Made by a program: the position numbers and the translations under genes. Below, piece by piece: positions 7,187 through 39,793 of a stretch of 39,793 bases of DNA (its first letter is position 1; every line of letters starts with the position of its first letter). The notes beneath the pieces were generated by a model that did no database searches, had not been told where the DNA came from, and saw only the letters and a list, made by a program, of their open reading frames with translations. The stretch lies in NCBI GenBank assembly GCA_030620115.1, contig JAUXFG010000013.1, forward strand, positions 1 through 39,793. The letters are read 5' to 3'. The stretch comes from Candidatus Fermentibacterota bacterium. Lineage in GTDB: Bacteria; JAFGKV01.

Positions 7187-7242
7187 TAGCCCGGACTTCT
7201 CACCGGCTGTCGTAGCAGGAAGCTGGTGAGAAGTTCGGGCTA
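7187..7242. repeat. Paired ends of the AGCCCGGACTTCTCACC repeat family, no interior
   Basis: tagcccggacttctcacc and ggtgagaagttcgggcta form an 18-nt inverted repeat with one mismatch around a 20-nt loop. The arms are the same as the ends of the roughly 180-200 bp copies at 8610 and 28186, so this looks like a form with the interior deleted. It lies 22 nt after the hydA stop and could also fold in the mRNA. Confidence 0.8.
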
Positions 7243-7280: not shown

Positions 7281-7451
7281 CTGAACTTGGGGTTATGGAA
7301 TGATGGAATACTGGAATGATGGCTCGGAAGGATTGGGATTTGATCATTTTTTCTCCAACCGCCATTCGAGATTTCATCAAGCATTTGATAGCCTGCGAAC
7401 AAGGTCACCGACAGGAATGGAACCCTGAACCTGTGAACGCCTACCTCTTAC

Positions 7452-7922: not shown

Positions 7923-7937
7923 GTTCGCTTAAGAGGT

Positions 7938-8037
7938 AAGCGTTCAGGGGTTCAGCGTTCAGAGGTTCAGCGTTCAGGAAAAAGCCTAGTCCATGCCCGC
8001 GGATCCCCCCTGAAATCTGAACGCTGAACACTGAACT
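7938..8037. repeat. GTTCAG-family inverted repeat
   Basis: The left arm is three tandem-like units (aagcgttcaggggttcagcgttcagaggttcagcgttcagg). The right arm (cctgaaatctgaacgctgaacactgaac) is the reverse complement of the same words. It begins 15 nt after the protease gene and its right half lies inside the end of the minus-strand MobB-like ORF. A second element of the family occupies 20978-21190. Confidence 0.8.
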
Positions 8038-8609: not shown

Positions 8610-8792
8610 TAGCCCGGACTTCTCACCAGCGTTCGGCTGCAGCAGCCGATATGGAACTGCCTGCTTCGTTACGCTTCATCGGTCTCCTCGACGTATCGCA
8701 GAGGATACGCCTGCGGGGTCCTCAGTCGCAAGCCTCGCATCCAGAACCATCTCGGCGGCTTCGCTTCGAAAGCCGGTGAGAAGTCCGGGCTA
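8610..8792. repeat. Full-length copy of the AGCCCGGACTTCTCACC...GGTGAGAAGTCCGGGCT element
   Basis: About 183 bp with terminal inverted repeats (tagcccggacttctcacc / ggtgagaagtccgggcta). The interior (cgatatgg, cttcgttacg, cagaggatacgcctg, gtcctcagtcgcaagcctcgcat, agaaccatctcgg, cgcttcgaaagccgg) is shared with the copy at 28186. It encodes no transposase. It lies 6 nt upstream of the MobB-like GTG and 3 nt beyond the stop of the PAP2 gene, filling nearly the entire spacer. Confidence 0.85.
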
Positions 8793-10309: not shown

Positions 10310-10598
10310 GTGCCCCTCCCGAGGCTGTTAGTCCGGGCTAACCCGCATCACAGGCGAATGCAGGTTCAGAACAATTTTGCACACTCATGTGCATGAGATT
10401 TCCGAGTCAATCTATTCGCAGGAAAGTCAATGGGTCAAGAATACAGGATGCGAGACGACGGCGGATCTTGTGGATGGTCACCCATATTGTCGGCCTCTTT
10501 GTCCTGCAACTGATAGGCTGAATGGATACCAATCCACCGCCTTTCTGGCAGTGAGAATTCGAAGGATTCAACCGTGACGCGCGAGAATTCTGTGGGGA
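10310..10598. other. Non-coding spacer upstream of the minus-strand operon
   Basis: No convincing gene was found. The first part should hold the promoter and ribosome site of the minus-strand beta-repeat gene. At 10327-10342 gttagtccgggctaac is a short palindrome containing agtccgggct, the terminal sequence of the repeat family at 8610, and may be a remnant end. Track ORFs here are short and show no family features. Confidence 0.5.
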
Positions 10599-10746
10599 AG
10601 AACGTCCAACATCGAACATCGAACGCCCAACGTGGAAGTACAAGAGAGCGGGGGAATGAGATGGCCAGGTTCATATTCGTAGCGCATGGCAGAGTGATCT
10701 TCTTGCCTTGGACGTTCGATGTTGAGCGTTGAATGTTGGACGTTCT
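10599..10746. repeat. AACATCGAAC-family inverted-repeat element
   Basis: agaacgtccaacatcgaacatcgaacgcccaacgt (left) and ggacgttcgatgttgagcgttgaatgttggacgttct (right) are imperfect inverted repeats flanking about 75 nt. The arms are built from tandem gaacrtcsaac-like words. Minus-strand reading gives ORFs with repeated FDVGR/TSNIQRSTSNVQ-type peptides (track ORFs 10407, 10435, 10568); these come from the repeat and are not called as genes. A short relative lies at 1424-1484. The stretch from 10747 to 10979 shows nothing recognisable. Confidence 0.75.
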
Positions 10747-20968: not shown

Positions 20969-20977
20969 CGGGAATAG

Positions 20978-21190
20978 TAAGCGTTCACGGGTTCAGCGTT
21001 CACCGTTCAGGGTTGCCTGAAGTCAGCTTGGGCATGTGTAAGCGTTCACAGGTTCAGAATTTCCCGCTGGAAGCGGGACCTTTCAGATCCCACGAATCAA
21101 CGGGTCGATTTCCGGTGAACCCCCACCGGGGCGTAGGCCCCTATGGGCCGGAGGCTGAACCTATGAACCTTTCAACCCGTGAACGCTTAC
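20978..21190. repeat. Large GTTCAG-family imperfect inverted repeat
   Basis: The left side has two starts of the unit (taagcgttcacgggttcagcgttcac and gtaagcgttcacaggttcag). The right side (ctgaacctatgaacctttcaacccgtgaacgcttac) is the near-perfect reverse complement. Inside lie a tcccgctggaagcggga palindrome (21062-21078) and gcgtaggcccctatgggccggaggc, which resembles 1309-1333. Together with 21191-21340, where nothing recognisable was seen apart from the leader of the next gene, this fills the spacer after tolB. No terminator T-run is present. Confidence 0.8.
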
Positions 21191-21340
21191 AAATATCGAC
21201 GCTTTGATCCCAGGCGAGTCCACGGTACTTCCTCATCATGAACGGTCTTTCCCGGGATCCAATCTGGGGCAAGAAGCCCCGCATGAACCGCAGCCTCGAT
21301 TCGTGGAATATCAGCGTCAATGACCGGTGGGGGGGGTAAG

Positions 21341-28185: not shown

Positions 28186-28387
28186 TAACCCGGACTTCTC
28201 ACCAACTTTGGGCTACAGCGGCCGATATGGCATCCCCCGTCCGACGCGGGACTTCGTTACGTTCTGTCGGCTTCCTCGATCCGCCAGCTGGCGGACAGAG
28301 GATACGCCTGTGGAGTCCTCAGTCGCAAGCCTCGCATTCAGAACCATCTCGGCCGTTTCGCTTCGAAAGCCGGCGAGAAGTCCGGGT
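28186..28387. repeat. Full-length copy of the AGCCCGGACTTCTCACC-family element with extra palindromes
   Basis: About 202 bp from aacccggacttctcacc to ggcgagaagtccgggt, colinear with the copy at 8610. Compared with that copy it carries two short palindromic additions: ccgtccgacgcgg (about 28232-28247) and tccgccagctggcgga (about 28271-28286), the latter replacing acgtatcg. Track ORFs 28121 and 28137 lie in it and are not genes. It begins 51 nt after birA; downstream, atggaatgatggaataatggg links to the similar tract at 7293. Confidence 0.85.
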
Positions 28388-28430
28388 CATGGAATGATGG
28401 AATAATGGGTTGGAGGCATCGGGGATAGAG

Positions 28431-34613: not shown

Positions 34614-34702
34614 GTAACTTCTCGATAAGTCCGGGCATCCGAAGGCCTCCCCTTTCGCGAAGGGGGATTTTCCCAGTATTGCACGGGGTTATTGAGAAGT
34701 CA
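34614..34702. repeat. Inverted repeat gtaacttctcgataa ... ttattgagaagtcac
   Basis: The 15-nt arms match at about 13 positions. The left arm continues into agtccgggc, which equals the end of the repeat family at 8610, so this may be a diverged relative. The hairpin at 34648 lies inside. The spacer from ksgA to pdxJ (180 nt) holds nothing else recognisable. Confidence 0.6.
34648..34672 (+). terminator. Rho-independent terminator after ksgA
   Basis: cccctt and aagggg form a stem around tcgcg, extended by neighbouring bases, and are followed by atttttcc-like T-rich sequence (gattttccc). It lies 92 nt after the ksgA stop and would end the ftsE-ftsX-holB-ricT-ksgA transcript. The T-run is only four bases. 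Confidence 0.6.
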
Positions 34703-39625: not shown

Positions 39626-39793
39626 ATGAGACATCTCCGGATTCTGCGATACGGGCGCGGGTGGGTGACATTGCCGGCTGCTGTGAAGGATGTAGAATTG
39701 CCGGAAACAGGTATAGAACCTCTGAAACACGATACTAGCGCGGACCTCTCTCCGGCTTTCGAGGCGAAACTGCCGAGATGGTTCTGGATGTCC
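39626..39793 (+). CDS. Possible ORF open to the window edge, running into a repeat
   Basis: From ATG 39626 (after AGGAG, spacing short) a frame stays open for 56 codons to the last base. The first 40 residues match nothing I recognise. The last 17 (LSPAFEAKLPRWFWM region) are translated from the reverse-oriented repeat that begins at 39735. It may be a real small gene fused to a repeat or only a chance frame; the window ends too soon to tell. Confidence 0.2.
   Translation, partial: MRHLRILRYGRGWVTLPAAVKDVELPETGIEPLKHDTSADLSPAFEAKLPRWFWMS
39735..39793 (-). repeat. Partial copy of the AGCCCGGACTTCTCACC-family element, reverse orientation
   Basis: The reverse complement of the window end (ggacatccagaaccatctcggc, then cgcctcgaaagccgga, then gagaggtccgcgcta) matches the right end of the copies at 8610 and 28186 with several mismatches. 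It is cut by the window edge. Confidence 0.75.

Follow-up and report, generated by a model that had tools for sequence, protein, structure and literature searches.

Introduction

ERIC sequences, also called IRU, are about 127 bp long and are known in Enterobacteriaceae and Vibrionaceae (PMC10969869). The RUP of Streptococcus pneumoniae measures 107 bp, is present in about a hundred copies and is attributed to IS630-Spn1 (PMC2229807). In Neisseria, the Correia/NEMIS repeats give stem-loop transcripts that RNase III cuts at the terminal inverted repeats (TIRs) (PMC10969869, PMC2229807). REP units are smaller, at 20-40 bp, and carry GTAG or CGTC tags (PMC3733652).

The repeat described here lies in a window of 39,793 bp, the whole stretch of DNA that was analysed, which is the entire contig C272 and ends at position 39793. 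We conclude that it is very probably a non-autonomous, TA-targeting MITE whose body is one long hairpin and which is moved in trans. No published description of the element was found in the open literature by topic, which does not prove that there is none.

Results

Copies of the element in the window

A sequence-only reading of the window had proposed a dispersed element of about 180-200 bp with TIRs in at least four places. Four sites proved to be real, and the window holds seven matches to the ends (≤3 mismatches) against 0.12 expected from shuffles. The features are listed below.

7187..7242, no strand assigned: 56-bp copy with an internal deletion; the two TIRs and the two TAs are kept, the core is gone
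8610..8792, minus strand (the better-folding strand): full-length copy, 183 bp including the TA at each side
10330..10340, no strand assigned: candidate degenerate end of 11 bp, AGTCCGGGCTA; doubtful
28186..28388, minus strand: 203-bp copy with two foreign palindromes in its interior; the target is the TA in a GGGTTATGGAATGATGG repeat
28233..28251, no strand assigned: small inserted palindrome TCCCCCGTCCGACGCGGGA; element bases replaced, judging from a comparison with unit copies
28280..28295, no strand assigned: small inserted palindrome TCCGCCAGCTGGCGGA, which takes the place of the left side of the apical hairpin
39736..39793, plus strand: partial copy, the 5' arm of the better-folding strand; stops at the contig end

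The end motifs AGCCCGGACTTCTCACC/GGTGAGAAGTCCGGGCT were located at 7188-7204/7225-7241, 8611-8627/8775-8791 and 28187-28203/28372-28388, and at 39737-39753. The stretches 8610-8792 and 28186-28387, which had been read as sharing ends and an interior, are both full copies, the second of which ends at 28388 with its TA; they are 93% identical over 91 bp and 87% over 46 bp. The palindrome TCCCCCGTCCGACGCGGGA occurs both within elements and elsewhere. The proposals of ends alone at 7187-7242 and of a reversed partial copy at the right edge were also borne out. As for the possible end remnants, the one placed at 10327 amounts to no more than an exact 11-mer at 10330-10340 whose identity as an end is doubtful, and the one at 34628 (CTTCTCGATAAGTCCGGGC) appears to be another palindromic repeat and no end of this element. 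The window also contains intergenic simple repeats of the GTTCAGCGTTCAG / GAACATCGAACG type, some of them inverted, at 7936-7976, 10599-10746 and 20977-21203.

Genome-wide abundance and anatomy

The sequence-only reading would have been refuted by window copies that stood alone in the genome and lacked consistent boundaries. Instead, 448 matches to the ends (≤2 mismatches) were found in the 4.10-Mb genome, compared with one for a reversed-pattern control, and the TA boundaries are fixed. A blastn search with the window copy gave 85 matches among the best 40 of 363 candidate places. In stretches totalling 1.55 Mb (38% of the genome) we counted 80 intact copies and 84 solo ends; such one-ended copies count against the MITE explanation. 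The standard copy is 183 bp long and consists of a 179-bp body, GCCC...GGGC, with a TA at either side. Copy sizes range from 42 to more than 500 bp because foreign palindromes (TCCCGCGTCGGACGCGGGA, TCCGCCAGCTGGCGGA, CCCGCACCCAAAGCTTTGGGTGCGGGA and others of greater length) have been substituted for stretches of the interior and because copies are nested in copies. One nested composite recurs at four loci (L016, L020, L023 and L024) with differing outer flanks, indicating that composites themselves have spread.

Searches of plasmids, phages and IMG/VR gave no matches to the element. Genomes of the sister genus each contain zero to two relatives according to the covariance models described below, and the amplification is therefore lineage-specific.

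Other repeats were seen in the same genome. Small perfect palindromes (TCCCGCGTCGGACGCGGGA, TCCGCCAGCTGGCGGA, GTAGGGGCACGGCATGCCGTGCCCCTAC and CCCGCACCCAAAGCTTTGGGTGCGGGA) are scattered genome-wide (L078, L083, L085, L087 and others), and in many cases one of them stands in for about 7-11 bases of another palindrome, which looks like substitution and not simple insertion. The copies at L012 and L013 (G000:C203 and C115) have a 25-base flank, AGTTTCCAACCTATTGARGACGGYT, in common, which suggests insertion beside another dispersed repeat.

Insertion at TA

The flanks of each copy were joined with a single TA, and uninterrupted versions were sought in the fetched sequence. In all five sets of uninterrupted repeat copies that were recovered, the difference was the element plus one TA, although a TA borne on the end of the element would be indistinguishable from a duplicated one. 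The target-site duplication, judged from these five sets, is TA. At L018, the joined flanks matched three uninterrupted repeat copies at 95-97% over 98 bp; at L011, the host module was also found uninterrupted, at 94%; and the copy at L089:11516 lies inside a multi-copy sequence that has paralogues without the insert. Between nested composites and solo copies the match is gap-free at about 90%, and the window copy at 28186-28388 splits a repeat that is whole at 7283-7314 of the window. For the nested composites and the gene families, the pre-insertion copies have CGA, or else GTAG together with substitutions close by, which leaves a length-exact alignment, and not an identical TA, as the support there.

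YTAR was the inferred target at 52 of 73 copies, whereas it accounts for 11% of NTAN sites between genes. The left letter was Y in 60 of the 73 and the right letter R in 65, which is the same preference at both ends. Such a symmetric preference is consistent with a TA-specific transposase that acts on double-stranded DNA. Double-strand, TA-specific transposition is a trait of the IS630/Tc1 type, and CTAG, one form of YTAR, is the IS630 target.

The hairpin, its covariation and its strand

RNAalifold folded the whole element into one long hairpin, of which the interior that had been singled out for folding is a part. The copy at 8610-8792 folded at -101.0 kcal/mol on the minus strand and -89.8 on the plus strand, and that at 28186-28388 at -105.9 (minus) and -92.7 kcal/mol. 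Among 27 copies from the source genome (G000), 90.8% of the cells pair. Both sides had changed in 27 pairs, compared with 13.7 in shuffled and 7-13 in slid controls, and in 69 cells, compared with 22.6 in shuffles; because these copies are related, the shuffle control is weakened, and the slid control is less affected. Genome G037 has an independent family with other TIRs, in which 15 pairs had changed on both sides.

One strand was favoured consistently. G-T cells outnumbered A-C cells on the same core-defined strand (74:35 in the source genome and 30:16 in G037) in structures predicted without G-U, and the better-folding strand was constant in 27 of 27 and 13 of 13 copies, respectively; the preference rests on these wobble counts and copy-by-copy energies, a strand-reflection null with a subset of pairs altered not being decisive.

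In a cross-lineage alignment (A5), compensatory changes were present in 66 of 71 pairs and in 452 cells, compared with 140 after shuffling, and covariation was 0.670 against 0.203 shuffled and about 0.1 slid. Since A5 was fitted to a covariance model, its counts lean towards that model; the gap is large nonetheless. The same strand was the more stable in 25 of 25 members of A5 and likewise in further lineages (L274 left out). Conserved letters cluster in internal loops, as UCGUNGCGAGG in the 5' arm and GCAGYAGA in the 3' arm, and at the apex, GGCGUAYC...GRUACGUYGAGGA. Matches of the element to Rfam 15 were at chance level only.

These data show that the body is under pairing constraint. The element as a whole has been amplified to hundreds of ends, nested composites included. 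The sequence-only reading had wavered between a MITE-like and a structured-RNA repeat, and each half holds. The first has exact TIR boundaries, a TA duplication seen against pre-insertion sites, hundreds of ends and no transposase within the copies examined; the second has a strand-specific hairpin that is supported by covariation and conserved across phyla.

Relatives in other lineages

The core pattern first tied the element to G037, to two Omnitrophota MAGs and to records labelled Nitrospira and Nitrosospira, labels that may err: L181 bears the title Nitrosospira and the name NOB2, and is similar in sequence to the Nitrospira record L184. The window copy aligned end to end with the Omnitrophota locus L183 at 71% identity (E=5e-26). 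We built a covariance model from the copies of the source genome (R1) and a cross-lineage model (R2); the E-values of both come from a short calibration. R1 scored the copy at 8610-8792, which is among its training sequences, at 201 bits (E=1.5e-45 in G000). Full-length R1 matches numbered 31 in G037 and two and four in the two Omnitrophota genomes, and were also present in G094, G001 and G051; the Nitrosospira- and Nitrospira-labelled genomes gave 14 and 49 matches, mostly full-length. A set of 193 genomes was sampled from distant groups, and R2 matched in 21 of them (E≤1e-5). The 21 belong to 19 families, one shared by G000 and G001 and another by G008 and G156, and most of them gave no sequence to R2. 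Several had at least 13 matches each.

The relatives keep the internal motifs, and their TIR sequences change with the lineage: the ends are AGCCCGGACTTCTCACC in the source genome, AGCCCGGATTATTCATGA in G037, AGCCCGGATATTTCATGG in Omnitrophota, GGAGTCTGTCCGAGTAATCC in Nitrospira, AGCCCACGTTGAGCGA in G001 and AGTTCGGGTGGCGGG in G068. TA flanks are visible in many relatives and not in all (G001, for example, is without them). That the relatives share the fold and the inner motifs but not the ends suggests an ancient class of hairpin elements that has not yet been described.

A second hairpin repeat (GACAAGGCGCGAGGAGCGCCGCGTACC...GGTACGCAAGTGACGAGCAACGCAG) was seen at L143 (G368:C34, 1354-1454), beside a core match and near a tRNA cluster. 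It is similar in design to the element and matches R1 weakly (E=0.14).

Search for the mobilising enzyme

As the sequence-only reading had it, the element encodes no transposase: none lies within any copy examined, and no TIR-bounded transposase was found in 1.55 Mb (38% of the genome). An autonomous copy was sought first in 1.12 Mb and then in 1.55 Mb, between TIR pairs spaced by 600-2600 bp; these pairs enclose ordinary genes only. There is no IS630-type DDE_3 gene (PF13358) in G000, G001 or G037. The DDE_3 gene of G002 was considered as a mobiliser and rejected, as it has no matching ends. The absence of a transposase is weak evidence because multi-copy insertion sequences are prone to drop out of MAG assemblies.

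The suggested REP-associated tyrosine transposase did not hold up, as the genes of this type in the genome have flanking repeats of their own and carry no element. In a REPIN-like scheme, a folded single strand would be moved by an HUH (Y1/RAYT) tyrosine transposase, with YTA in the role of the REP GTAG tag. We consider this improbable. Y1 genes are present in G000 and in most element-positive genomes, but the positive genomes G068 and G172 gave no Y1 match, 7 of 10 negative genomes have such genes, and one weak element match was found among 26 Y1 loci. The short RAYT of the source genome is flanked by its own REP, GTAGGTCGGGTTAGCG..., and a 331-aa Y1 transposase by its own GGGGTCAG inverted repeats. 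The scheme would fit the observation that each lineage examined has one better-folding strand and the lack of a significant bias in tandem gene pairs (22:15, see below), which is expected if the strand matters to the element and not to host transcripts; the equal target preference at both ends is unlike one-strand recognition.

At L174 (G000:C200:12766-13119), a short RAYT-type Y1 transposase has REP hairpins of its own, GTAGGTCGGGTTAGCGCAGCGTAACCCGAC, on its flanks, which makes it a classic REPtron apart from the element. At L169 (G000:C118:13885-14223), the 331-aa Y1 transposase lies between inverted GGGGTCAGATCTTTAATG repeats, which fit the GGGGWSAS ends described for TIRYT genes (PMC3733652).

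Gene context

Genes were called with a simple dicodon heuristic for the context counts. Of 67 classified cases, 63 were intergenic, with numbers proportional to the length of the gap. There was no excess of convergent gene pairs, the context tracking the available gap length, and orientation relative to flanking genes showed no significant bias (22 sense to 15 antisense in tandem pairs; also 20:14). Nothing indicated that selection acts on the preferred strand via host transcripts.

These counts bear on the idea that the element is a cis-acting RNA (a terminator, an mRNA stability element or an RNase III/E site) that spread through benefit to the host, mobility being secondary. The strong covariation, conserved unpaired motifs and strand preference agree with it, as does the distance to a gene end, which is at most 50 bp in 28 of 58 cases. 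Nevertheless, such a role is quite unlikely in view of the orientation counts, the dependence of gene-pair context on gap length and the persistence of short copies without a core, such as that at 7187-7242 of the window.

Discussion

That the interior hairpin is the functionless leftover of an inverted duplication in an ordinary decayed MITE is very unlikely: the arms are diverged copies of each other and stem-loop folding is common among bacterial MITEs (review PMC10969869), but the loop motifs, the apex, the length (~180) and the better strand have been kept in unrelated lineages while the TIRs changed.

For a non-autonomous MITE moved in trans, the reading we prefer, a TA-specific double-strand transposase would recognise the TIRs, cut at TA and duplicate it. 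This enzyme may have been lost, may be missing from the assembly or may belong to a family not recognised here. The strand-specific interior and its loop motifs are probably a second functional part, acting as a folded RNA or a single strand, because they are conserved across phyla while the TIRs change.

Bacterial MITEs are usually seen as local debris, in which the ends matter, the interior is filler and each genus has its own. What is new here is that the part common to the lineages is the structured interior and that the ends vary. The shared interior, together with the compensated pairs of A5, points to a step under selection, in which the structure is recognised, during the element's life. 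We tentatively raise the possibility of a phylum-spanning superfamily, in which a strand-specific folded RNA or ssDNA of about 180 nt with fixed loop motifs (UCGUNGCGAGG, GCAGYAGA and a GUAC-type apex) would be bound by a protein or host factor, the TIRs would be swapped in each lineage, and ERIC would be a shortened gammaproteobacterial branch.

Comparison with known systems

Like REP sequences and REPINs, the element is extragenic, forms hairpins, is present in hundreds of copies and is at times clustered. It differs from them in its length of about 183 bp, its symmetric YTAR target, its YTA-GCCC ends and the lack of linkage to a RAYT; neither a RAYT flanked by the same repeat nor GTAG/CGTC-tagged units of 20-40 bp, both of which mark REPINs, were found. 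Correia/NEMIS repeats, set beside the element by description, are likewise small and non-autonomous with stem-loop-forming transcripts, and they differ in size (107 and 155 bp).

RUP, also compared by description, shares with the element its TIRs, TA target, non-autonomous nature and high copy number (PMC2229807). RUP is accompanied in its genome by a matching IS630, whereas the source genome is without an IS630-type gene. Measured against IS630/Tc1-type MITEs, the element accordingly has the TA target and the duplication and is without the DDE_3 gene in the genome. It has the general features of a MITE, namely a length below 500 bp, TIRs, many copies, no transposase gene and a TA duplication. 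MITEs usually, though not necessarily, derive from an autonomous element that bears their TIRs, and none was found in 38% of the genome.

In its manner of working the element is akin to ERIC and RUP. ERIC resembles the element in being intergenic, in its long imperfect hairpin and terminal TA, in reaching hundreds of copies and in having no transposase of its own, and it is about 60 nt shorter. ERIC copies from E. coli plasmids gave no significant match to either model (R1, E=0.028/0.094; R2, E=0.026/0.036; 1.45 kb), although the R2 match lay at 303-425 where ERIC occupies 301-427. Kinship is thus a lead, with a suggestive placement and a match that is not significant. In the ERIC loci (L226, L227), one strand of the tested copy folds better (-58.4 vs -48.0 kcal/mol), and the apical layout, CCAGGAGCTTAC...GTAAGTGACTGGGG, is similar to that of the element. 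The covariance model allows the superfamily to be annotated, and with it the origin and the mover of ERIC-like repeats become testable.
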